Shown in pieces: positions 6,990 through 28,370 of a stretch of 64,000 nt of DNA (position 1 is the first letter of the stretch; the number at the start of each line of letters is the position of its first letter). The stretch is from an uncultured Porphyromonadaceae bacterium (lineage in GTDB: Bacteria > Bacteroidota > Bacteroidia > Bacteroidales > Muribaculaceae): the NCBI GenBank assembly GCA_947175605.1, contig CAMWNH010000001.1:62001-126000 (forward strand). The letters run 5' to 3'. A program made the translations under genes and the position numbers. The notes beneath the pieces were generated by a model. The model did no database searches. It had not been told where the DNA came from and was given only the letters and a program-made list of their open reading frames with translations.

Positions 6990-7970
6990 ATGAGCAGTGA
7001 AAAGTGCGGGCGCGAGTCCCGCGAAGCGTTGATAGAGGAAATTCGCCGTCTGAAGAAGGAGAAGGGGGCCGTGGTGCTCGCTCACTACTACACCGAGGGC
7101 GATGTGCAGGACCTGGCGGACATCATAGGCGATTCGCTGGCGCTGGCGCGCAAGGCTGCCGAGCTGGGTCCGGAGGTCAAGACGGTAGTGATGTGCGGCG
7201 TACACTTCATGGGCGAGACCGTGAAGGTGCTCTGCCCCGACAAGACTGTCCTCATGCCCGACCTCTCGGCCGGCTGCTCGCTGGCCGACAGCTGTCCCGC
7301 CGACGAGTTTGAGGCCTTCATCAAGGCTCATCCGGGCTATACGGTCATTTCGTATGTCAATACCTCGCTGGGCGTCAAGGCCCTGAGTGATGTGCTCGTA
7401 ACGTCGGGCAACGCTCGCAAGGTGGTGGATTCCTTCCCCAAGGACGAGAAGATAATCTTCGGTCCCGACCGCAATCTGGGAGCCTACCTCAACGCCGAGC
7501 TGGGCCGCGACATGCTGCTGTGGGATGGCGCCTGCCATGTGCACGAGCGCTTCTCGGCCGAGGGCATACGCGCCCTCAAGGCCCTGCACCCCGATGCGCC
7601 CGTATTGGTGCATCCCGAGTGCAAGAGGCCTGTCGTACTGCTGGCCGATAAGGTTGGTTCCACGGCTGCACTGCTCGATTTCGCGCGCAAGTCGGATGCC
7701 CGCAAATTCATCGTGGCCACGGAAAGCGGCATTCTCCACGAGATGCGCAAGTCCTGTCCAGAAAAAGAATTCATCGCCGCGCCCCCGGCCACGGGCGAGG
7801 GCGGCGAAGGCGCGCCCGGCTGCGGATGCAACGACTGCGCTTACATGAAACTGAACACCCTGCGCGCCCTGCGCAACTGTCTCCGCGACGGCCGTCCGCA
7901 AATCGAGATCGATCCCGAACTGGCCCGGGGCGCACTCCGCTCCATCGACAGGATGCTGGCGCTTTCCTAA
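6990..7970 (+). CDS. nadA: Quinolinate synthase
   Basis: NadA condenses iminoaspartate (made by NadB) with dihydroxyacetone phosphate to give quinolinate for NAD synthesis. [19 protein letters not shown] near the N-terminus is the substrate-binding signature. The three 4Fe-4S ligand cysteines appear in [16 protein letters not shown] and the CGCNDCAYM region. At 326 aa it has family length. The partner nadB lies on the opposite strand at 30-32 kb, so the pathway is split. LeuS follows after 44 bases. Confidence 0.96.
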
Positions 7971-8014
7971 GCTTCAGGCATCGTCCGCAAAATCTGATAA
8001 AATCATCATTCACA

Positions 8015-10795
8015 ATGGAATACAAGCATAAAGACATCGAAGCCCGCTGGCAGCAGAAATGGAAAGACGCCGGCATATACAAGGTCGACAACAAGAGCGA
8101 CCGTCCGAAATACTATGTTCTCGACATGTTTCCCTACCCCTCGGGTGCGGGCCTGCATGTGGGACATCCCTTAGGCTATATCGCTTCGGACATCTATGCC
8201 CGCTACAAGCGCCTCAACGGCTTCAATGTTCTCCACCCCATGGGCTATGACGCCTATGGCCTGCCCGCCGAGCAGTATGCCATTCTGACCGGACAGCATC
8301 CCGAGATCACCACGCGCCAAAACACCGCGCGCTATCGCGAGCAGCTCGACAAGATAGGATTCTCCTTCGACTGGAGCCGCGAGATCAAGACCTGCGATCC
8401 CGAGTTCTACCGCTGGACGCAATGGGCCTTCCTGCGCATGTTCGACCACTGGTATAACAAGCGCACCGCCAAGGCCGAACCCATTTCCGAACTCGTGGCA
8501 CATCTGGAAAAGCACGGCACGGAAGGCCTTGACGCGGCGCAGACCCGCGAACTCAACTTCACCGCCGCTGACTGGGCCGCGATGACCGACAAAGAGCGCT
8601 CCGACGCGCTGATGAACTGGCGTCTCGCATTCCAGGCCAATACGATGGTGAACTGGTGTCCCAAGCTCGGCACGGTGCTGGCCAACGATGAGGTGTCCGA
8701 GGGCCTGAGCGTACGCGGCGGCTATCCCGTGGAACAGAAAATGATGTATCAGTGGTGTCTGCGTGTCTCGGCCTATGCCGACCGCCTCTTGAAGGACCTT
8801 GAGACTATCGACTGGAGCGACTCCATCAAGGAGACGCAGCGCAACTGGATTGGCCGCAGCGAGGGCGCCGAGATGCGCTTCAAAGTTGCCGACAGCGATG
8901 TGGAACTTGAAATATTCACCACGCGTGCCGACACCATTTTCGGTGTCACCTTCATGGTCCTCGCTCCGGAGAGCCGCTATGTTGACATGATCACCACGCC
9001 CGAACAGCGTGCCGCCGTCGAAGAATACGTCACGGCCACCAAGCATAAGACCGAGCGCGAGCGCATGATCGACAAGAAAGTGTCCGGCGTGTTCACCGGT
9101 GCTTACGCCATTAATCCGCTCACGGGTAAGAAGGTGCCCGTGTGGGTGAGCGATTACGTGCTCGCAGGCTACGGCACGGGCGCCATCATGGCCGTGCCCG
9201 CGCACGACAGCCGCGACTATGCCTTTGCCCGCCATTTCGACCTTCCCGTGATTCCGCTTATCGAGGGCGCCGACGTGTCCGAGAGTAGTTTCGACGCCAA
9301 GGAGGGCCGCATGATCAACTCCGAAGGCCCCGAGCTGAATCTCAACGGCCTGGAAGTCAAGGACGCGATTGCCAAGACCAAGGAATTTATCGCTGCCAAG
9401 GGCATAGGTAAGGTCAAGGTCAACTTCCGTCTGCGCGACGCCATCTTCAGCCGTCAGCGCTACTGGGGCGAACCTATTCCCATTTACTACAAGGACGGCA
9501 TCCCCACCGCCTACGAGGAAGGTCTGCCCCTGGCTCTGCCCGAGGTGGACAAATACCTGCCCACCGAGAGCGGCGAGCCTCCCCTGGGCCGCGCCAAGAA
9601 CTGGACTACCCCCGACGGCTATCCGCTGGAACTGAACACGATGCCGGGCTTCGCAGGCTCCTCCGCCTACTACCTGCGCTACATGGATCCCCACAACTCC
9701 GAAGCCCTCGTATCCCCCGAGGCCAACGGATACTGGCGCAATGTCGATCTCTACATCGGCGGCAGCGAGCATGCCACAGGCCACCTCATCTACAGCCGTT
9801 TCTGGAATAAATTCCTCTATGATCTTGGTCTCGTATGCGAGTCCGAGCCCTTCCGCAAGCTCATCAACCAGGGCATGATTCAGGGCCGCAGCAACTTCGT
9901 GTATCGCATCAAGGACACCAATACCTTCGTGAGCCACGGCCTGAAGGATCAGTACGACACGACGCCCATCCACGTGAATGTGAACATCGTAAGCAACGAT
10001 ATCCTCGACCTCGACGCCTTCCGCAAGTCGCAGCCCGAATACGAAACGGCCGAATTCATCCTCGAGGATGGCAAGTACGTGTGCGGCTGGGCGGTCGAGA
10101 AAATGTCCAAGTCCATGTTCAACGTGGTGAATCCCGACGATATAGTCGAGCGTTATGGTGCCGACACCCTGCGTCTCTACGAAATGTTCCTCGGACCGCT
10201 GGAGCAGAGCAAGCCCTGGGACACCAACGGCATCGACGGCGTGAACCGCTTCATCAAGAAGCTCTGGAGTCTCTACTGGAAGGGCGATACATGCCTTGTG
10301 GACGATTCCAAGCCCTCGCCCGAGTCGCTCAAGAGTCTCCACAAGCTCATCAAGAAGGTGACGGGCGACATCGAGAATTTCTCCTTCAACACGTCCGTGG
10401 CCGCGTTCATGATTTGCGTCAACGAGCTCTCGTCGCAGAAGTGCCATAGCCGCGAAGTGCTTGAGCCTCTGCTGATTCTGCTTGCGCCCTTTGCGCCTCA
10501 CGTGGCCGAAGAGCTGTGGCACAGCGCAATAGGCCACGCCGATGAAGAAAGCATCGTGCGCGATGCACAGTGGCCGTCTTTCAACGAGGACTTCCTCAAG
10601 GAGAGCACCGTGACGATGGCCGTAAGCTTCAACGGCAAAGCGCGTTACAACATCACCGTACCCGCCGGTACCTCCCGCGAGGATGTTGAGAAGGCCGCCC
10701 TCGAGCATGAAGGTGCCGCAAAATGGCTCGATGGCAAAACCGTGCGCAAAATTATCGTTGTGCCCGGAAAAATCGTCAATATTGTTGTAGCTTGA
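8015..10795 (+). CDS. leuS: Leucyl-tRNA synthetase
   Basis: This class I synthetase charges tRNA-Leu. Visible signatures are the HIGH-type motif HVGHPLGY near residue 50, the CP1 editing domain ([17 protein letters not shown] and [12 protein letters not shown]) and KMSKS ([10 protein letters not shown]) near residue 705, then the anticodon-binding C-terminus. I chose ATG at 8015 ([16 protein letters not shown]), giving 926 aa. The ORF-track start at 7826 runs through nadA in another frame. The 895-aa antisense ORF is a shadow. Confidence 0.97.
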
Positions 10796-10829
10796 TAATA
10801 AAACGCTTGTTTCTCCGTTCTCTATAGAC

Positions 10830-11414
10830 GTGAAAAAGATAGTATTCGCAACCAACAACGCTCATAAGCTCGATGAATTGCGCCGCATGGCCGGTGACCG
10901 ATTCGAGATTCTGAGCCTCAAGGACATCCGTTGCTTCGACGATATTCCCGAGAACGAAACCACGTTCGAGGGCAATGCTCTTGCAAAAGCACGGTGGGTG
11001 CGCGATCGCTATGGCTACGATTGTCTGGCGGACGACTCGGGTCTGGAAGTGGATGCGCTCGACGGCGCTCCCGGTGTCCTGTCGGCGCGCTTTGCCGCCG
11101 AGCACGACGATGCCGCCAACAACAAGCTCCTGCTGGCCAAGCTGCAGGGCGTGCCTGCGCAGAAGCGCACCGCCCGGTTCCGGACCGCCATCTGCCTGCT
11201 TGAGGGCGATGCCGAGCCCCGTTTCTTCTCGGGCGCCGTGGAAGGCCGGATTCTGGACGCTCCCCGCGGCGAAGGAGGCTTCGGATACGACCCCCTTTTT
11301 GTAGCCGATGGATATACCCGCACTTTCGCGGAAACATCCGCAGCCGAGAAGGATGCCGTGAGCCATCGCGGACGGGCCGTCAGAGCCTTGCTCCACTATC
11401 TCCACGCCGAATAA
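10830..11414 (+). CDS. rdgB: XTP/dITP diphosphatase (RdgB/HAM1 family)
   Basis: It hydrolyses non-canonical purine triphosphates (XTP, ITP, dITP) to monophosphates, cleaning the nucleotide pool. Family motifs are present in order: FATNNAHKLDELR at the N-terminus, DDSGLEVDALDGAPGV near residue 70, GGFGYDPLF and SHRGRAVRAL at the end. At 194 aa it has typical length. The start is GTG (GTGAAAAAGATAGTA), 34 bases after leuS, so it is likely cotranscribed. Confidence 0.95.
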   Translation: MKKIVFATNNAHKLDELRRMAGDRFEILSLKDIRCFDDIPENETTFEGNALAKARWVRDRYGYDCLADDSGLEVDALDGAPGVLSARFAAEHDDAANNKLLLAKLQGVPAQKRTARFRTAICLLEGDAEPRFFSGAVEGRILDAPRGEGGFGYDPLFVADGYTRTFAETSAAEKDAVSHRGRAVRALLHYLHAE

Positions 11415-11460
11415 GAATAATCATACCTCTCCTCAACCAATACATTCCATTAAACCAACC

Positions 11461-14046
11461 ATGAACAAAAAGATTACTCTCCTTCTTGCACTTGTCCTTG
11501 GGGCTGTGTTCAGTGTAGCTGCGCAATCTTTCAGCGGGCGCTGGAGCCTCTTCCCCACGGTCGGAACGTCGATCGACAGGGTCGTATGCTCTGACTCAAA
11601 GGTGTTCTTCACGAACTCCTCGCGCCTCTCGCACTACTCCGAGGACGATGCGGAAACATATCATTACGCCAATTCCGACGCCGTTGCAAGCGTGGATGTA
11701 AGCAGCATCCACTACAATCCCGACACGCGTCAGCTTCTGGTGGTGTATTCCGACTACAACATCGACATCATCGATGCCGATGGCTCGGTGCATAACATGT
11801 CCGCAATCCGCGATGCCGTGCTTACGACGGCAAAGGACATCGAGGACGTGGCGTTTTACGGCGATGAAGCCTACATCGCCACCAACTTCGGCCTTGTGGT
11901 CGTGGACATGAAGTCCGCTACCGTCAAGCAGTCTGGCATCTATGGTTTCGGTCCCTCGCTCGTAGGTGTCACCGAGAAGTTTGTCGTGCTCTATTTCTAC
12001 TCCCCCATCGCTTCGGCCGGAATCCCCAAGGAGTCGTTCTACGTTGCGCCGCGCAATGCCAAGCTCAGTTCCTTCTCCGCCTTCAAGAATGTATTCAGTC
12101 AGGGCATCATGGATATTCAGGAACTTAACGGCACCAATCTGGTAACGCTCAGCAGCGACGGCTGGCGTACGCGTATCGTGTCGATAGATCCCGAGACGCT
12201 CGCGATGAAGGCCGACAACCGTCTCACCACGGTCGTGTCGCAGCTTGTCCGCGGCGCCGACGGACGGGTGTATGCCGTAAGCTCAACCGATGTCAAGGTC
12301 ATTGATCCCGAGACAACTCAAGTTGCCGAGACGGTGCAGCTTCCCGCCGGTCTTAATGGTCGGGCATTCGGTTTCGGCAAGAAGGGCCTGGCGGATGCGT
12401 GGATTTCCAATGCCTCCGGTCTTGGAAAATACGATCTAAAGACCTCGACTGTCCTTATGAGCCCCTACTTCCCCGAGGGATTGTCCGTGAAGCATCCGCA
12501 CTATATGGAGTGGGACTCGCAGGGCCGTCTGTGGGTCACCAATATCAGTCTGTCCGAGTCGAAGAGCATACCCTCCGGCAAGAACGCCTATTACGATGAA
12601 AAATACGTTGCCCTTATCGACGGCAACAGACTCGAGGACCGCACGCCCACGACAGGCATGACCAGTTTCGGCATCGCATCCGGCTGGTATGACTTCTTCG
12701 AGCCCTCCGAGGAGGAAAAAGCCCGCTATCAGGAGGAAATGTGGCGCATGCAGTGGTCGCAGATGGCTAAGGACAACTACGCCAAGACAAAGCAGCTTTG
12801 CGGCGTTCACAACCGCCTGCTCCCCGACCTTGACGATCCCGACAAGTTCTGGGTTGCCGGTGGCTCCGAGGGTATTGTGCTGTGCGAGAAGGGCGAGGGA
12901 TACTCGGCGGATAATGTTCAGGGCGATGCGCTGGCCATCTACAGCCGAATCAACATGCCCTATCTCCCCACCAAAGACTGGAGTGATACCCGAGTTTATA
13001 ATCTCGACTACGATCCCGAAGGTAATTTGTGGGTGTTCTTCTGGACCTATGCCGATGGCTCCATCGGTCCGCGTAATGCCATAGACATCTTGCCGGCCAA
13101 GATCCGGAAGGACCGTCCGGCACGCGTGAAGTATGCCGACTGGGTTGTCTACCCCGAGATGCCCGGCTACGATGTCAAGTACGATATCGTGTCCTGTTTC
13201 TCCCATAAGTCGAACATGCTTTTCGTGTTGAGTTCCACGTATGCCGGCTCTCTGCATGCGATAGACACGAAGGGTACTTATCTCAATCCCAACGACGATG
13301 TGCTGACGATACACCCCACAGTCATCGACCAGGACGGTAATGTAATCTCGCCCCTCGTATATACGGATATCAAGGAGGACAAGACCGGTATGATCTGGGT
13401 TGGCACCTCCTCGGGCCTTTATGTGATTCCCGATCCCCAGTCCGCAGCATCTGAAAGCATGCGTGTGCGCCGCCCTGTTGTTCCGCGTAACGACGGCACC
13501 AACTTCGGCGACTATCTGCTCGACGGTGCCGACATCTCCTGCATTGCGGTGGATCCCAACAATCGCAAGTGGATCGGCACGGCAGATGCCGGTGTGTATC
13601 TCGTAAGTGCCGACGGCACCAAGATCATCTCGCATTTCGACAAATCCAACTCGCCCCTGGTGAGCGACGAGGTTTATTCCATCGCCGCCGATCCTAATTC
13701 CAACCGTGTTTACATCGGCACGAGACTCGGCGTGATGTGCTACGAGAGCGATGCATCTCCGGCCAAGGACGATTTCTCCGAAGTCTACGTCTACCCCAAT
13801 CCCGTCCGTCCCGAATATACGGGCTGGATCACGGTGGCCGGCCTTATGGATAATTCCCTCGTGAAGATTGCCGACATCAACGGCAATATCGTCTTCCAGG
13901 GCAAGTCCTCGGGCGGCAGCTTCATCTGGGACGGCTGCAATGCCGGCGGCGAACGCGTCCGCACGGGTGTTTACCTCGTGCTCGCATCCGCAGGCGACGA
14001 CAGCAGCTCTATGGCTGTAGTCTCTAAAATCATGATTATGAATTGA
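11461..14046 (+). CDS. porZ: PorZ-like beta-propeller protein (T9SS-associated)
   Basis: This 861-residue exported protein has a signal peptide cut after about VAAQ-22. Two regions of propeller-like repeats follow, including two-component-regulator-propeller motifs such as GMIWVGTSSGLYVI and NRKWIGTADAGVYLVS. It ends in an Ig-like type IX C-terminal domain (VYVYPNPVRPEYTG to KIMIMN). This order matches PorZ, the surface component of the type IX attachment complex in Porphyromonas, which helps deliver anionic lipopolysaccharide to cargo. It is followed after three bases by an unknown gene and then a DUF4369 lipoprotein in one run. The assignment rests on architecture; other propeller proteins with a C-terminal sorting domain remain possible. 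Confidence 0.72.
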   Translation: MNKKITLLLALVLGAVFSVAAQSFSGRWSLFPTVGTSIDRVVCSDSKVFFTNSSRLSHYSEDDAETYHYANSDAVASVDVSSIHYNPDTRQLLVVYSDYNIDIIDADGSVHNMSAIRDAVLTTAKDIEDVAFYGDEAYIATNFGLVVVDMKSATVKQSGIYGFGPSLVGVTEKFVVLYFYSPIASAGIPKESFYVAPRNAKLSSFSAFKNVFSQGIMDIQELNGTNLVTLSSDGWRTRIVSIDPETLAMKADNRLTTVVSQLVRGADGRVYAVSSTDVKVIDPETTQVAETVQLPAGLNGRAFGFGKKGLADAWISNASGLGKYDLKTSTVLMSPYFPEGLSVKHPHYMEWDSQGRLWVTNISLSESKSIPSGKNAYYDEKYVALIDGNRLEDRTPTTGMTSFGIASGWYDFFEPSEEEKARYQEEMWRMQWSQMAKDNYAKTKQLCGVHNRLLPDLDDPDKFWVAGGSEGIVLCEKGEGYSADNVQGDALAIYSRINMPYLPTKDWSDTRVYNLDYDPEGNLWVFFWTYADGSIGPRNAIDILPAKIRKDRPARVKYADWVVYPEMPGYDVKYDIVSCFSHKSNMLFVLSSTYAGSLHAIDTKGTYLNPNDDVLTIHPTVIDQDGNVISPLVYTDIKEDKTGMIWVGTSSGLYVIPDPQSAASESMRVRRPVVPRNDGTNFGDYLLDGADISCIAVDPNNRKWIGTADAGVYLVSADGTKIISHFDKSNSPLVSDEVYSIAADPNSNRVYIGTRLGVMCYESDASPAKDDFSEVYVYPNPVRPEYTGWITVAGLMDNSLVKIADINGNIVFQGKSSGGSFIWDGCNAGGERVRTGVYLVLASAGDDSSSMAVVSKIMIMN

Positions 14047-17234: not shown

Positions 17235-18338
17235 ATGACTATGAACTATAAGTATTTTGCTTTTATAAGCTACAGCCATAGCGATATGCGCTTTGCGAGG
17301 TGGCTGCAGGGAAAGCTGGAGGGATATAAGCTCCCCACGCGGCCCGTGCGAGTGAATAATGAAATCAAGCACGGCTGCCGCTATCTCCAGCCCGTGTTCC
17401 GCGACCAGACCGACATGAATTCCGGCGTCCTCGACGAGGAGCTGCAGAAGAACCTCGAGAGCAGCAAGTATCTTGTGCTTCTATGCTCCAAGAGTTCTGC
17501 AGCCTCTACCTGGGTCAATGGCGAGGTGCAGTCCTTTATCGACATGGGTCGTTTCGCAAACATCATTCCCGTGCTGATTCCTTCGCCCGGAGTGCCTGAA
17601 ACGGAGCTCTTCCCCGCTGCGCTCCGCGAGTATTCTCGCATGCATGGCAAGGAGCTGCGTGGAATAAACATTGCCGAGGGGCGTGAAAAGGCGTTCATAC
17701 AGGTTGTGACGCGTATGCTCGGGCTCGACTTCGACGAGCTGTGGCAGCGCTACCGCCGCGCGCGCAGGCAGCGCATCGCGGCAATTACGGCCTTTTCCGT
17801 CGTGGCTGCTTTGTGCGCATATACTTTTGCTCTGCCGGTGAAGCTGGATGTGAATGTCCTGCCCGAGCCCTCACAGCTTCCTGTGGGTGAGGAGCTGCAT
17901 CTTACGGTCGACGGGGCCGAATATACGGTGCCCGTGAATGAGCCGCACGTTGCGGGCATATCCGTTCCGGGCTACCGCCGGCTGGGGCGGATAGATGTCT
18001 CCCTCTCCTCGCAGTTTTTCACAAGCGTGGATACGAGCGTGGCCACGGGATTCGGGCTGCGCAGGCAGCTCGCGCTTGACCTCCGTCGCGACGATAGTTT
18101 TGCCCTATACGCCGGGGTCGTATATACCGATGATATGGAGCCCCTCGAGGGTGTGGCGGTGAGTGTGGCCGATTGTACGGTCGCTACTGATTCCGATGGC
18201 CGCTTCGCCATCACGCTTCCTCTTGCCGAGCAGCGAGCCGAGCAGTGCATCACGCTCACACGCTCGGGCTATCGCACCATAGTCCGCGAGGACGAATCTC
18301 CCTCCGGCGATCTGCGCTTCATCCTTCACAAAGACTGA
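17235..18338 (+). CDS. TIR domain - transmembrane - carboxypeptidase-regulatory-like fusion protein
   Basis: Three parts are visible in 367 residues. Residues 5-170 are a TIR domain: YFAFISYSHSD, VFRDQTDMNSG, YLVLLCSKSSA, and STWVNGEV whose Glu97 sits where TIR NAD hydrolases carry the catalytic glutamate. An Arg-rich stop precedes one hydrophobic helix at about 181-201. The rest contains a CarboxypepD_reg-like beta-sandwich at about 287-345 (LYAGVVYTDDMEPLEGVAV, DSDGRF). The positive-inside rule puts the TIR domain in the cytoplasm and the C-terminus in the periplasm. ATG at 17235 or 17241 could be the start. Signalling or defence roles are inference; no partner effector gene lies beside it. 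Confidence 0.85.
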   Translation: MTMNYKYFAFISYSHSDMRFARWLQGKLEGYKLPTRPVRVNNEIKHGCRYLQPVFRDQTDMNSGVLDEELQKNLESSKYLVLLCSKSSAASTWVNGEVQSFIDMGRFANIIPVLIPSPGVPETELFPAALREYSRMHGKELRGINIAEGREKAFIQVVTRMLGLDFDELWQRYRRARRQRIAAITAFSVVAALCAYTFALPVKLDVNVLPEPSQLPVGEELHLTVDGAEYTVPVNEPHVAGISVPGYRRLGRIDVSLSSQFFTSVDTSVATGFGLRRQLALDLRRDDSFALYAGVVYTDDMEPLEGVAVSVADCTVATDSDGRFAITLPLAEQRAEQCITLTRSGYRTIVREDESPSGDLRFILHKD

Positions 18339-18351
18339 CCCACGCCCAAGC

Positions 18352-18410
18352 GTTTTTGCGACCTGTACGGACATGCCTTTGGCCTGTCGCCGACAGGTCG
18401 CAAGTTTTTG
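18352..18410 (+). terminator. Terminator after the TIR gene, carrying a REP-like core
   Basis: GCGACCTGT and ACAGGTCGC pair to form a stem followed by AAGTTTTTG. The loop side contains GTACGGACATGCCTTTGGC, a sequence repeated near 21.8 and 22.4 kb. Confidence 0.65.
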
Positions 18411-21404: not shown

Positions 21405-21791
21405 TTATCGGATTTTGGTCCACTCCCACAGCTCCGACTTGTCGTCGTCAATGGATTTTATCACGAGGGTTCTGGACGTGAGCGTGTAGATGCGATATCT
21501 ACTCACATCGCCGTAACTTTCATCGTACAAGGTGAGGATATCACCTCGGAGCGTATAGCTGCCATACTCGTCCCAGTCGCCTGAGCCGCCAACCGAAATC
21601 CAGGTGTAGCTGCCGTTTTTCTTAAAAGTCAGGGTCTCGTAAATGTCATAATTGCTGAAGCCCCACGAGCCGACCAGCAGGGATTTCTCCGTGTCCTTGT
21701 CGCCTTTGGGATCATCGTCGTCGTCCTTGTCGCAGGCTGCGAAGACGAAGGGCAGCATGGCGATGAGGAGGTATCTGAGAATCTTTGTCAT
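21405..21791 (-). CDS. Small acidic-tagged lipoprotein (copy 1)
   Basis: The 128-residue protein has a type II signal peptide MTKILRYLLIAMLPFVFAAC and lipidation at Cys20. The acidic run DKDDDDD right after the cysteine resembles the lipoprotein export signal for surface display described in Capnocytophaga and Bacteroides. The mature part (LLVGSWGFSNYDIYETLTFKKNGSY...) looks like a small lipocalin-like beta barrel. The signal peptide is identical to that of the neighbouring lipoprotein at 21957 while the mature domains have diverged. Function is unknown. Confidence 0.85.
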   Translation of the reverse strand: MTKILRYLLIAMLPFVFAACDKDDDDDPKGDKDTEKSLLVGSWGFSNYDIYETLTFKKNGSYTWISVGGSGDWDEYGSYTLRGDILTLYDESYGDVSRYRIYTLTSRTLVIKSIDDDKSELWEWTKIR

Positions 21792-21956: not shown

Positions 21957-22373
21957 TTACTTCTTCTTCAGCGTGATTCTGTCACCTCCGGCGGTCAAAG
22001 TCATGTTTTTCCCGGAAATTTTGCAGCCGAAGTATTCCATCTCAGGTTCGTCATACCTTTCATCTTCGTCTTCAGTGATGTATAGGTAGAGGATTTCAAT
22101 ATCGCTATCATACTCATAGTAGCCCTTGCAATATCCGAAATCTCTTTCGTCATCATCCCAGTATTTCCATGTGAAATTACCGTTGGATTTGAAATCCATA
22201 GACCATAGTTGAGAGGTGCTGTCGTAGCCATCGTCATATGTGTAGGTGCCGGTCCATGTACCGACGATATTTGCATCGCTACCCTTGGGATCGTCTTTAT
22301 CGTCGTCCTTGTCGCAGGCCGCGAAGACGAAGGGCAGCATGGCAATGAGGAGATATCTGAGAATCTTTGTCAT
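21957..22373 (-). CDS. Small acidic-tagged lipoprotein (copy 2)
   Basis: The 138-residue lipoprotein shares the signal peptide MTKILRYLLIAMLPFVFAAC with copy 1, followed by DKDDDKDD. The mature domain (NIVGTWTGTYTYDDGYDSTSQLWSMDFKSNG) has the GTWTG opening typical of lipocalin-like lipoproteins and is closer to copy 3 at 24323. It is probably a surface lipoprotein. Leader DNA, start region and the downstream REP element are shared with copy 1, pointing to tandem duplication. Confidence 0.87.
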   Translation of the reverse strand: MTKILRYLLIAMLPFVFAACDKDDDKDDPKGSDANIVGTWTGTYTYDDGYDSTSQLWSMDFKSNGNFTWKYWDDDERDFGYCKGYYEYDSDIEILYLYITEDEDERYDEPEMEYFGCKISGKNMTLTAGGDRITLKKK

Positions 22374-24322: not shown

Positions 24323-24787
24323 TTATTTTTTTCTTGTCAGCGTGGCTGTACCGTCGATGTCGTTGCCGCTGAGATACATCTTGTTGCCCGATATGCGGCA
24401 TCCGAAAGTCACCGTTTCCGAGTCTTCGCCCCAGTCGCCTTCTTCGTCGTCTCCCTGGACGGTCAGGCGCAGCTTCTCACGGTCTTCGTCGTAGGTGTAG
24501 ATGCCATAGAGACTATATTCATCATCATAGTCCAGCTCCACGCAGTCAAGGGTGAACTTACCGTTGGTCTTGAGAACGAGTGTCCATTTTTCGGACCACA
24601 TGTCGTAGCCTTCACCGTCTTCATCGAAATCAACGGTTCCGGTCCATGTGCCGGCTATTTCAACGTACTCGGTGCGGTCGTCGTCATTGTTGTCATCGTC
24701 CTTGTCGTTCTTGGGTTCGTCCTTGTCGCAGGCTGCGAATGCCAGGGGAAGCATGAAAATTAGCAGATACTTGAGCAGTTTTGCCAT
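24323..24787 (-). CDS. Small acidic-tagged lipoprotein (copy 3)
   Basis: ATG at 24787 (MAKLLKYLLIFMLPLAFAAC) gives 154 residues with a clear type II signal peptide; the longer ORF-track start runs into the upstream RNA-like region. After Cys20 come DKDEPKNDKDDDNNDDD, a long acidic tether matching a surface export tag. The mature domain (EIAGTWTGTVDFDEDGEGYDMWSEKWTLVL) aligns by eye with copy 2 at 21957. It is the first gene of a five-gene minus-strand run. Confidence 0.88.
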   Translation of the reverse strand: MAKLLKYLLIFMLPLAFAACDKDEPKNDKDDDNNDDDRTEYVEIAGTWTGTVDFDEDGEGYDMWSEKWTLVLKTNGKFTLDCVELDYDDEYSLYGIYTYDEDREKLRLTVQGDDEEGDWGEDSETVTFGCRISGNKMYLSGNDIDGTATLTRKK

Positions 24788-24832
24788 TTTATTTGTTGGG
24801 TTGTTTTGGCCGAGCCCATTCCTTGCTTGGCA

Positions 24833-25088
24833 ATAAAAAAAGAAAAAGCGTGGAATGACTCCTTGTCTATCTTCTCGGAGGCATCGCCAAACGCCCAACA
24901 CAAAATAAACGGTTCATTTCCACGCCTACGTATATAGCCGGACCTCCGCACAATGCGGGCCCGTGTATATGCGCGTGCTGCATAGCAAGGTTGAAAATGC
25001 TGTGTCCTTTGTGTTCTTGAAATTTGGCGATTTCCGAGAAAGGATAAAGCAAGTTACGCTTTCAAAATGTCTTGTCCGGCTTCCCGAA
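24833..25088 (-). ncRNA. Candidate structured non-coding RNA
   Basis: A promoter box (TATCTTTG, 25095-25102) starts it, and the end is a long hairpin closed by GCGTGGAAATGA/TCATTCCACGC followed by TTTTTCTTTTTTT. Inside are small hairpins such as CCGCA-TTG-TGCGG. Total size is about 255 nt. The only ORF (about 60 codons) does not look like a protein. It could instead be a long attenuator leader for the lipoprotein gene that begins 45 bases further on. I cannot name an RNA family. Confidence 0.5.
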
Positions 25089-25411: not shown

Positions 25412-26008
25412 TCAGTGGCCCATGGCCATGAGGCGAATCCATTTGCGGTAGCCCAGCAGGGCTATTACGGTATAGATGCCGTAGAGGATGCCGTAGAGCG
25501 GAATGCCCTTGTAGAAATACAGGCCGCACGACACGATGTCCACCACAGCCCACACAAGCCATTGCTCGAGATATTTCCGTGCCAGCATCCATGTCGCTGT
25601 CATGGAGAGGGCCGTGGTCAGGGCATCCAGCCAGGGCACCGTGCTGTTGGTGAAGTTTATGAGCACGAAAGCTATCAGCAGATACACCGCGGCCGTCACG
25701 ACGCCCGTTGCCGCCAGACGCCGGAGCGGAAAGTGCGAAATGCGCAGCGTCTCGTGCGCCTTGTCGCGCTTTGCCTTGTCGCGGCCGCTCCATGCCAGGA
25801 GGCCGTAGACGGCCATGACAAGGTAGTAGATATTCATCGTGAAGTCGGCATAGAGCCCCGCGCGGAAGTAGACCCACATCGACATGCAGGGCATCAGCAG
25901 CCCGGCCAGCCAGAGCAGGCGGTTGGCCTTGAATTCCCAGTAGAGATAGAGCAGCCCTATGAGAAAGCCGCCGAGCTCCATCGCGTTGTCAAATGTGAGC
26001 CACGTCAT
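25412..26008 (-). CDS. pnuC: PnuC-family transporter, probably thiamine (PnuT type)
   Basis: The 198-residue inner-membrane protein has about seven hydrophobic segments. It shows PnuC-family features such as IGLLYLYWEFKANRLLW near the N-terminus and QWLVWAVVDIVSCGLYFYKG in the middle. PnuC proteins facilitate uptake of nicotinamide riboside; PnuT relatives carry thiamine. Here the gene is second in an operon led by a TPP riboswitch and a TonB receptor, so thiamine is the likelier substrate. Its ATG overlaps the receptor TGA by one base (TGATG). The thiamine pyrophosphokinase that often follows in Bacteroidetes is not present; a terminator comes next. Confidence 0.88.
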   Translation of the reverse strand: MTWLTFDNAMELGGFLIGLLYLYWEFKANRLLWLAGLLMPCMSMWVYFRAGLYADFTMNIYYLVMAVYGLLAWSGRDKAKRDKAHETLRISHFPLRRLAATGVVTAAVYLLIAFVLINFTNSTVPWLDALTTALSMTATWMLARKYLEQWLVWAVVDIVSCGLYFYKGIPLYGILYGIYTVIALLGYRKWIRLMAMGH

Positions 26009-28248
26009 CAGAATTTCACGTTGAGGGTTGCCATGAAGTGTGCGGGCGCCTGTGCGGCATAGCCGCTGTAGCGGTAGATAACTTTCTGGCCTTCGTCGTC
26101 CACGTAGTAGCCCGAGCCGGCATATCCGTTGCTCTCATACTTGGCGTTGAACACATTGTAGACCGTGGCGCCCAGGCGCACTTCCTTCAGCCCGAGAAGG
26201 CCGCGGAAAGTCCAGGAAGCCGAGAGATTGCTGAAGAAGTAGTGGGGCAGCGTCTGCTCCTCCACGCGGGCGTTGGTCATGTATTGTTTCGACACATAGT
26301 GGCTCTCGAGCGAGGCGTCGAGGCCGCGCCAGTGGAAGTTGAAGGCATTGTTGAGCGTGAAGTCGGGCGAGAAGGCGATGGGCGTGTTGCCGCAGTCGAT
26401 GGAGATGGGATTGGTCCACTCGTCCTCGTAGATGTATTCCACGAAGTTCTTGATGCGGTTGCGCGACAGCGTGGCGTTTATCTGCCAGTCGAACCATTTC
26501 ACGGGGCGTACACCCGCTTGCAGCTCGATGCCCGCGCGGTAGCTGTCGGGCACGTTCACGCTCATGGCGTTGCCCGTGTCGGAGAGCTGGCCCGTAAGCA
26601 CGAGCTGATTCTTGTAATCCATCCAATAAAGATTGACGCCACCCGTGAAAATATGGTGCTTGAAAGTATAGCCCAGCTCGTAGTCGAACATGCGCTCGGC
26701 CTTGGGCTCGTGGCCCGGGTCGGCATCCGTGAAGTTGTCGTGTGTAGGCTCCTTGTGGGCCACGCTCCATGACGCGAATGCACGGTGGCGCCCGTCGTTC
26801 GAGGCCCAGTTCAGGCCCAGCTTCGGGTTGAAGAAATTATACCGCTTGTCGATGTCGAGCTGCTGGGGCGCCGAGGTGTTGTAGTCGTAGGTGTCGGACG
26901 TGCCCTTGATCGTGTAGTGTATGCCACGGTACTGCAGGTCGGCGTAGGCCGTGAGGCCGTGGCCGGCGTCCACGTTCGCGCGGGCGTAGATGTTGCCGTC
27001 GAGCTTTTCGCCCAGGTGGCGGTAGTATTCCTGCGAAGGATTGAGCGCGCCCACATAGTTGCGCACCCATTCCACCGTGCCGAAGTGATGGCCTCGGAAA
27101 TTGTTGAGCGCTCCGCCCAGGGTGGCGTGCACGCGTCCGTGGTGCCAGTTGAGCGAGAACATGCCTCCGCCGAATCCGTTGGCGAGACTCTTGTCGCGGA
27201 TGAGGTCGCTTTTCTTCACCACCGTGCCGTCCTCGAGCGTATAAGGCTCGAGACCGTATTCGATCAGCGTGCGCTTGGTCTTGTACTGCTCGTAGTAGCC
27301 GTTGCCCTTGGTATAGTGCAGGGCCACGTTCAGATGCCACTCCGAGCCTATGTCCTGTCCCCAGTGCAGCTGGAAGTGGTGTTGCGTGTAGTTGTCCGTC
27401 TGGTTGGGATAGTAGGCCGTGTTGCCGTCGCTGTCCGTGTACTCGCCGCAGGGATTGTAGCGGCGCCCGTACTTCTCCATGTCCTCGCGCGAGGCGTAGT
27501 CCCAGGCCATGTAAGTCTGCTCCTTGCCGCCGAAGGCCAGCAGGCGCACGTTCGTGCCCCCGTTCGTGTAGGCCGCCTGTCCAAAGTAGCTCCAGAGCTT
27601 CGAGAACGCGCGGTCGATGTAGCCGTCCGTTCCCGCGTGCGATATGCGCGCATCGGCGCTCCAGTGCTCGCCCAGCAGGCCCGTGCCCACGCGCAGGCTC
27701 TCCTTGTTGGTGTTGTACATGCCGTAGCTGCCCGCAAATTCCGCATAGGGCTCGTAGGAGGGAGCGTCTGTAATCAGGTTTATCGAGCCGCCGAAAGCTC
27801 CCGCGCCGTTGGCGCTCGTGCCGGCGCCGCGCTGAATCTGCACGTCGCGCACGCTTGCCGCTATGTCAGGCATGTTCACCCAGTAGACGTTGTGGGTCTC
27901 GGCATCGTTCACCGGCACACCGTTCGTGGTGATGTTGATGCGCTGGGAGTCAGAGCCGCGTATTCGCAGGCCCGTATAGCCCATGCCGGCGCCGGCATCG
28001 CTCGTAGCAAGCAGCGAAGGCGTCATGCCCAGCAGAAAGGGCATGTCGCGGCCGTCGTTGGCGCGGTCGAGTTCTGATTTCGTAACGTTGGTGAAGGCCA
28101 CGGGAGTCGTGGCGGTGGCGCGGTTGGCCAATACTTCCACATCCTGCAGACGGATTACGGATGAGTCGGCGGCCGTTTCGGCCCCGACAGCGTGAACACA
28201 CGGCACAATAGCCGCCGTGGCCACGACGAAGAACAGATGTCTCTTCAT
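26008..28248 (-). CDS. TonB-dependent receptor, probably for thiamine
   Basis: The 746-residue outer-membrane receptor has a signal peptide, a TonB-box-like start (VIRLQDVEVLANR), a plug domain (GLRIRGSDSQRINITTNGVPVNDAE) at about residues 50-170 and a 22-strand barrel ending in HFMATLNVKF. TonB receptors import scarce ligands using proton motive force passed on by TonB. The TPP riboswitch directly upstream and the coupled pnuC gene identify thiamine or a phosphorylated form as the probable ligand. No SusD partner is present, which fits a vitamin receptor rather than a glycan system. Confidence 0.93.
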   Translation of the reverse strand: MKRHLFFVVATAAIVPCVHAVGAETAADSSVIRLQDVEVLANRATATTPVAFTNVTKSELDRANDGRDMPFLLGMTPSLLATSDAGAGMGYTGLRIRGSDSQRINITTNGVPVNDAETHNVYWVNMPDIAASVRDVQIQRGAGTSANGAGAFGGSINLITDAPSYEPYAEFAGSYGMYNTNKESLRVGTGLLGEHWSADARISHAGTDGYIDRAFSKLWSYFGQAAYTNGGTNVRLLAFGGKEQTYMAWDYASREDMEKYGRRYNPCGEYTDSDGNTAYYPNQTDNYTQHHFQLHWGQDIGSEWHLNVALHYTKGNGYYEQYKTKRTLIEYGLEPYTLEDGTVVKKSDLIRDKSLANGFGGGMFSLNWHHGRVHATLGGALNNFRGHHFGTVEWVRNYVGALNPSQEYYRHLGEKLDGNIYARANVDAGHGLTAYADLQYRGIHYTIKGTSDTYDYNTSAPQQLDIDKRYNFFNPKLGLNWASNDGRHRAFASWSVAHKEPTHDNFTDADPGHEPKAERMFDYELGYTFKHHIFTGGVNLYWMDYKNQLVLTGQLSDTGNAMSVNVPDSYRAGIELQAGVRPVKWFDWQINATLSRNRIKNFVEYIYEDEWTNPISIDCGNTPIAFSPDFTLNNAFNFHWRGLDASLESHYVSKQYMTNARVEEQTLPHYFFSNLSASWTFRGLLGLKEVRLGATVYNVFNAKYESNGYAGSGYYVDDEGQKVIYRYSGYAAQAPAHFMATLNVKF

Positions 28249-28258
28249 ACTTTTTTCT

Positions 28259-28351
28259 CTACGCCGGTATTACCCGGATCAGGTTCAAAGGGTATGATCT
28301 CAGCTTCGGCGCCGTGTCCCTCCGGACTGCGGCTACTGCCGTCGCACCCCT
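28259..28351 (-). promoter_or_regulatory. TPP (THI-element) riboswitch
   Basis: On the minus strand the conserved THI core is present: GGGGTGC, then CTGAGATCATACCC, TTTGAACCTGATC and GGTAATACCGGCGTAG. It lies between the promoter and the receptor ATG. Only about 10 bases separate the 3' end of the aptamer from the start codon, leaving no room for a terminator, so control is probably at translation initiation. Confidence 0.95.
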
Positions 28352-28370
28352 AAAATTTTTCTTGTCGCCG

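Follow-up and report, generated by a model that had tools for sequence, protein, structure and literature searches.

A TIR protein with one membrane helix and two predicted periplasmic beta-sandwiches, and its associated genes in Bacteroidales

Domain organization of component A

The window, i.e., the whole stretch of 64,000 nucleotides of a gut bacterium analysed here, contains an open reading frame on the forward strand (17235-18338) that encodes a protein of 367 amino acids, termed component A. As seen from the reading frame, the alignment of a 21-member family and an AlphaFold model, it consists of a TIR domain, a transmembrane segment and two beta-sandwiches; all its features are on the same strand. 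The TIR domain (17262-17720; residues ~10-162) matched the Pfam profiles TIR_2 (PF13676; residues 10-135, E value 4.7e-13, 50.1 bits versus a cut-off of 28) and ThsB_TIR (PF08937; E value 1.7e-8, also above cut-off). In Foldseek searches, its fold matched the TIR domains of MAL (TM 0.67) and TLR15 (TM 0.63) as well as plant RPP1. By fold and by a profile score above the curated cut-off, component A belongs to the TIR domain superfamily, as had been proposed in an earlier, sequence-only reading of this DNA. TIR enzyme domains serve immunity in organisms ranging from bacteria to humans.

In the AlphaFold model, which was built on a shallow alignment of 21 homologues and has a mean pLDDT of 89.1, the TIR fold is followed by one long helix (residues 166-199) and the two sandwiches (residues 202-283 and 291-363). 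The single transmembrane helix that had been noted previously was recovered at residues ~179-199 (17769-17831; hydropathy 2.02). Sandwich 1, delimited in the model (17838-18086; residues 202-284), is the most variable part of the protein. Sandwich 2 (18102-18326; residues 290-364) matched Pfam CarboxypepD_reg (PF13620; residues 294-350, E value 0.001) with 19.8 bits, i.e., below the cut-off of 32.3, so that this assignment is a fair but unproven call by sequence. The modelled domain aligned to the transthyretin-like domain of human carboxypeptidase D (5aq0; TM 0.78, rmsd 1.8 Å) and to the N-terminal extension of a SusC protein (9hfj; TM 0.78). According to the model, sandwich 2 is carboxypeptidase-regulatory/transthyretin-like by fold, although the Pfam cut-off was missed. 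The sequence-only reading was thus right about the fold of this domain, with a profile score that stays below cut-off, and had recognized one of two sandwiches. Downstream of the gene, a pattern scan revealed a terminator-like hairpin (18380-18400), a weak indication given that four such hairpins were found versus 1.7 expected in the region.

The motif W93-x3-E97 (17511-17525) corresponds to the predicted catalytic glutamate motif of TIR NADases. All 21 homologues have both residues, including the glutamate of the STWVNGEV segment that had been singled out before (E97). In the alignment with the plant TIR domain 3jrn, E97 coincides with the glutamate of the SSWCLDEL motif, which we take to be the catalytic residue of TIR NADases. 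Judged from these conserved residues, it is quite likely that the TIR domain of component A acts as an NADase.

Charges flanking the helix were counted in the pooled sequences of the 21 homologues. The 15 residues on its N-terminal side comprise 109 lysines plus arginines and 21 aspartates plus glutamates, and the 15 residues on the C-terminal side comprise 17 and 42, respectively. As the flanks obey the positive-inside rule, this charge bias places, with high probability, the TIR domain in the cytoplasm and the sandwiches in the periplasm, which bears out the earlier suggestion that they lie on opposite sides of the membrane. Mean pairwise identity among the homologues is 51% for the TIR domain, 27% for sandwich 1 and 30% for sandwich 2. 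Faster divergence of the sandwiches is as expected of a fast-evolving sensor, and the proposed sensory role of the periplasmic part is plausible.

Other features were found elsewhere in the window. Three small lipoprotein-like genes on the reverse strand (21405-21791, 21957-22373 and 24323-24901) have closely similar starts (MTKILRYLLIAMLPFVFAACDKD or near) and form a local gene family, one member of which matches Pfam Lipocalin_4. A TPP riboswitch (28239-28361, reverse strand) directly precedes an ORF of 746 amino acids (26008-28248, reverse strand) whose product looks like a TonB-dependent receptor and probably functions in thiamine-related uptake.

Distribution and genomic setting

The full architecture of component A is kept across many genomes at 28-61% identity; it is therefore neither a chance ORF nor a one-off fusion. 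Among 297 genomes of the family, 28 genomes from 10 of 30 genera contained a full-length copy. Most of the genomes are draft assemblies, and longest ORFs served as gene calls everywhere outside the window. An order-wide sample yielded full-length copies in a few other families as well, and a class-wide sample gave no further ones. Distribution is patchy within the genus of the window genome (four of the sampled genus genomes). A contig search returned one relative, in which the match was limited to the TIR and helix part. Phages and plasmids were dismissed as carriers: zero matches were obtained in 50,697 phage records and in viral contigs, and the plasmids searched gave partial TIR matches only, none of them full-length.

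In the window genome, the gene for component A is located between yifB and tRNA-Asp. The run of porZ-like, DUF4369 and YifB genes, previously regarded as its context, turned out to be incidental, since all 29 other yifB loci examined in the genus lack the TIR gene and since, in the relative closest to the window genome (component A 61% identical), it precedes nadA at the opposite end of the nadA-leuS-porZ-yifB block. An operon with yifB, DUF4369 and porZ was ruled out by the same two observations. A tiny mobile island at tRNA-Asp was likewise rejected, with no direct repeats, no integrase seen and a GC content of 58% versus 57%. Profile searches with PADLOC and NCBIfam gave weak TIR similarity only, which dismissed a known defence system as the identity of component A and agrees with the earlier statement that its layout is not a standard named defence type.

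Two further TIR genes were seen in the window genome. The first (contig C5, 55020-55631) encodes a TIR domain and helix 48% identical to those of component A, with a C-terminal part of about 1,100 amino acids that has no Pfam match. The second (contig C70) is a SIR2-TIR fusion adjoining a gene for a putative STAND-type NTPase; it is likely a separate defence locus. Similar pairs of SIR2-TIR and NTPase-like genes lie near the gene for component A or B in two loci (L046, L162).

Putative partner proteins B, C and D

In other Bacteroidales genomes the same architecture is found in clusters with up to three further components, B, C and D. Component B, in relatives usually the product of the adjacent gene, begins with a stretch resembling a signal peptide, which is followed by a CarboxypepD_reg-like beta-sandwich with a sub-threshold score, a coiled segment and, in most cases, TPR repeats. 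Among the 297 genomes, 27 have both A and B, one has A only, three have B only and 266 have neither (Fisher p = 7e-34, shared ancestry ignored). In the single A-only genome the A gene is at a contig end, and two of the three B-only genomes have weak matches. Of 37 fetched loci, 30 have B no farther than 6 kb from A, and in 26 the distance is at most 200 bp. Three B genes lie elsewhere in the window genome (C41:749-1522, C62:300-1070 and C4:45315-46049), along with a degraded copy on C38; all are unlinked to A, and the TIR protein of this genome does, therefore, have partners. In all likelihood A and B work together, and they presumably do so by physical contact.

One B gene contains a 126-base repeat of 73-77% identity in its TPR-encoding part and another contains none, which rules out arrays of nearly identical DNA repeats. 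B is multiplied in some genomes, with up to nine matches. Two family genomes (G279, G267) have eight to nine B matches together with one or two A genes, a ratio that suggests several sensors per receptor.

In other Bacteroidales families, the helix and sandwiches of the A type are joined to different N-terminal parts. Four loci (L137, L138, L140, L141) have, in place of the TIR domain, a domain that starts with KIFLASSAELD; it had no match in Pfam, NCBIfam or PADLOC and is possibly an enzyme of the Rossmann type. The same position is taken by a C39-peptidase-like domain in L139 and by a short segment in L142. As B is near these non-TIR versions too wherever the contig allows, the helix/sandwich module and B make up the constant pair while the cytoplasmic output varies, which suggests a swappable receptor platform.

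Component C, present in many clusters of relatives, is an RyR-domain protein of about 95 residues; the example from locus L048 scored 116.7 bits with PF02026 (cut-off 27.4). The phage protein RyDEP, also an RyR-domain protein, cleaves 2'/3'cADPR, which it binds through H, W, H and D residues (PMC13232231, preprint). These ligand residues (H-x2-W...H...D) are kept in nearly all small RyR proteins; that of L048 has T for the second H.

Component D, likewise found in many clusters, is an RCK-channel-like membrane protein of 650-890 residues with two to four hydrophobic helices and an RyR-like tail at its end. Its AlphaFold model (pLDDT 83.6; shallow alignment of 22 sequences) matched the TrkA gating ring, GsuK with NAD and Slo1 in Foldseek, with E values of 6e-7 to 1e-4 and modest TM scores of 0.25-0.49 on the target. 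D, with an RCK-ring-like body in this model, is a probable ion channel. Its tail is mostly below the PF02026 cut-off of 27.4 bits: two D proteins scored 15-17 bits, and a few others pass. Tail residues H718, W721, H746 and D773 are conserved in at least 90% of the sequences; by our reading of the alignment they correspond to the ligand residues of RyDEP, and most D tails keep them. In one genome of the same genus that holds A (G322), D is fused to a true canonical RyR domain, and in another locus (L153) an MscS-type channel domain adjoins a D-like RyR tail.

Complete clusters have the gene order C-A-B-D (L166), B-B-A-C-D (L154) or B-A-D-C (L171). A co-occurred with D (p = 3e-16) and with RyR (p = 3e-12), and D with RyR (p = 8e-31; all Fisher tests, shared ancestry ignored). 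D and RyR are not exclusive to A, as they occur in 26 and 33 sampled genomes, respectively, that lack full-length A, some of which have other TIR proteins; other TIR architectures accompany D and RyR in L127, for example. Conversely, neither D nor RyR is present in two genomes with A (G073, G179).

In the window genome, D runs off the end of contig C62, which carries B as well, and resumes at the end of C35 across a contig gap, with all four tail residues intact. A is unlinked to both B and D, and a search of this genome for a separate RyR protein (C) gave none. The view that RyR, and hence an output, is absent from it was revised when D turned up split between contig ends, carrying an RyR-like tail that scores below the Pfam cut-off. 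The earlier remark that component A has no neighbouring effector is true locally yet misleading, because B and the channel-like D are encoded elsewhere in the genome and are clustered with A in relatives.

Several other genes were observed in these loci. Locus L127 encodes a C39-peptidase-like domain fused to an RyR domain (10605-11567), next to or near D and with a sigma-factor-like gene beside it; RyR proteins of similar size are located next to or near D in four further loci (L172, L174, L175, L178). Genes for calcineurin-type phosphoesterases are near A in three loci (L055, L060, L061), in L055 with a PQQ propeller, and a gene resembling this type is also on C62 of the window genome, the contig holding B and D. 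Between B and A, L055 contains a gene for an apparently secreted LRR and caspase-like protein (7439-8953). A caspase-like protease is the effector of type IV Thoeris (PMC12847820); a signal peptide would be unusual for such an effector.

Proposed pathway and comparison with known systems

Taken as a whole, we read component A as the periplasm-sensing TIR receptor of a multi-gene Bacteroidales system in which an NAD-derived signal gates D, and we give this reading a probability of about 0.5. Catalysis, the identity of the signal, gating of D and the biological purpose of the system are what we infer. Component A would be a receptor that spans the inner membrane once, with its TIR enzyme domain in the cytoplasm, and its two periplasmic sandwiches would work with secreted B. 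An event at the envelope, possibly damage or a phage that attaches or injects, would alter the A-B assembly such that the TIR domains gather and cleave NAD+ with E97, yielding an ADP-ribose-type signal. This signal would act on D and open the channel in most relatives and probably in the window genome too, and the opened channel would arrest or kill the cell. Where present, C would be a helper to D, as co-receptor, buffer or off-switch. By analogy with phage RyDEP, which cleaves such signals, RyR might switch the signal off or soak it up instead of receiving it. That D is the output of the system is slightly favoured, and for an anti-phage role the odds appear even.

Alternatively, component A could be a self-contained receptor whose periplasmic part, together with B, triggers a TIR domain that destroys NAD+ and thereby stops the cell; C and D would then be ancillary, or would form a system of their own that frequently accompanies it. 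Direct NAD depletion occurs among bacterial TIR defences (PMC12847820), and the invariant W93 and E97, the lack of an effector next to A in the window and of a separate RyR gene in that genome, and the two genomes with A and B but neither D nor RyR would fit such a mode of action. It is nevertheless rather unlikely, as the clusters joining A, B, C and D and the association of A with D and RyR point to a messenger, and D is present in the window genome.

The system could also serve envelope-stress or surface sensing and not phage defence, with sandwiches and secreted TPR proteins monitoring envelope assembly and the TIR domain adjusting NAD metabolism or ion balance. The fold that component A shares with SusC N-terminal extensions, the secreted-looking and in some genomes multiplied B proteins, the absence of A from phage records and viral contigs and of full-length matches from plasmids, and the sigma-like or C39-peptidase genes in some loci are in line with this idea. 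The patchy presence of A within one genus, a sensor that diverges faster than the TIR domain, and the caspase- and CHAT-like genes that co-reside in some loci look more like a conflict system, and we consider this reading unlikely. Finally, it is highly improbable that the TIR domain is a non-enzymatic scaffold recruiting other proteins as in animal Toll-like-receptor adaptors: TIR domains can serve as scaffolds and the fold matches MAL, but W93 and E97 are strictly kept in proteins down to 28% identity and A is associated with RyR-type nucleotide-binding domains.

A literature search for a combination of TIR with RyR, or of A, B, C and D, returned no description; only the RyDEP preprint (PMC13232231) was directly relevant, and an earlier mention in Burroughs et al. 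2015 is possible. The A-B-C-D system is apparently undescribed, although its underlying kind, TIR-based nucleotide signalling, is known. The paper by Burroughs et al. (NAR) reportedly discusses nucleotide-centred conflict systems. We propose only tentatively that the pathway as such is undescribed, i.e., a two-protein periplasmic sensor, a TIR domain making a messenger of the cyclic ADP-ribose type and, as its receiver, a host-encoded RCK-like channel with an RyR domain. If this is true, the action of cyclic ADP-ribose on ryanodine-receptor-type domains of channels would have a direct precedent in bacteria. With genes for a TIR enzyme and an RyR-type channel-like protein in one cluster, the old question of a direct action of cyclic ADP-ribose on RyR domains becomes testable with small soluble bacterial proteins.

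Among known systems, Thoeris combines a ThsB TIR protein with SIR2-SLOG, TM-macro or caspase-like effectors, and its membrane-active and caspase-like outputs provide precedents (PMC12847820). The TIR domain of component A is similarly expected to make an NAD-derived signal. It differs in being membrane-tethered with periplasmic sensing domains and in having the near-obligate secreted TPR partner B. The output candidates are RyR and RCK-like proteins; a SIR2-SLOG or macro effector was not recognized beside A in relatives. Pfam ThsB_TIR passes its cut-off, and the PADLOC ThsB matches are weak and partial and do not span most of the ThsB profile. No ThsA-type effector (SIR2-SLOG, TM-macro or caspase-like) adjoins A in the window, and its neighbours in relatives are B, C and D; at least one of these relatives (L055) has a caspase-like gene in the vicinity of A. 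Our best reading is a system that is Thoeris-like in its TIR logic but not Thoeris.

Likeness to RyDEP lies in the 2'/3'cADPR ligand residues H, W, H and D of the small RyR proteins and most D tails. RyDEP itself is a viral counter-defence enzyme, whereas the RyR domains described here are encoded by the host next to a TIR gene, and those of D form part of a channel-like membrane protein. RCK-gated potassium channels and TrkA (GsuK, Slo1) resemble D in that its model aligns to RCK rings, and GsuK was solved with NAD bound; D, channel-like by model, differs from them in its low sequence similarity, its extra RyR-like tail and its association with a TIR gene. SpbK and Cat1 likewise combine, in one protein, a TIR enzyme domain with a domain for sensing or assembly, but are cytoplasmic with internal triggers, whereas component A is predicted to face the periplasm. 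To our knowledge, known bacterial TIR defences sense inside the cell; a periplasm-facing TIR receptor would be an early-warning layer with a receptor layout comparable to that of Toll-like receptors. Like the animal Toll-like receptors, component A would be a single-pass protein with its sensing domain outside and its TIR domain inside; the resemblance is one of analogy only, as the TIR domain of component A is N-terminal (reversed order), its sensor is unrelated and it is a predicted enzyme rather than a scaffold.
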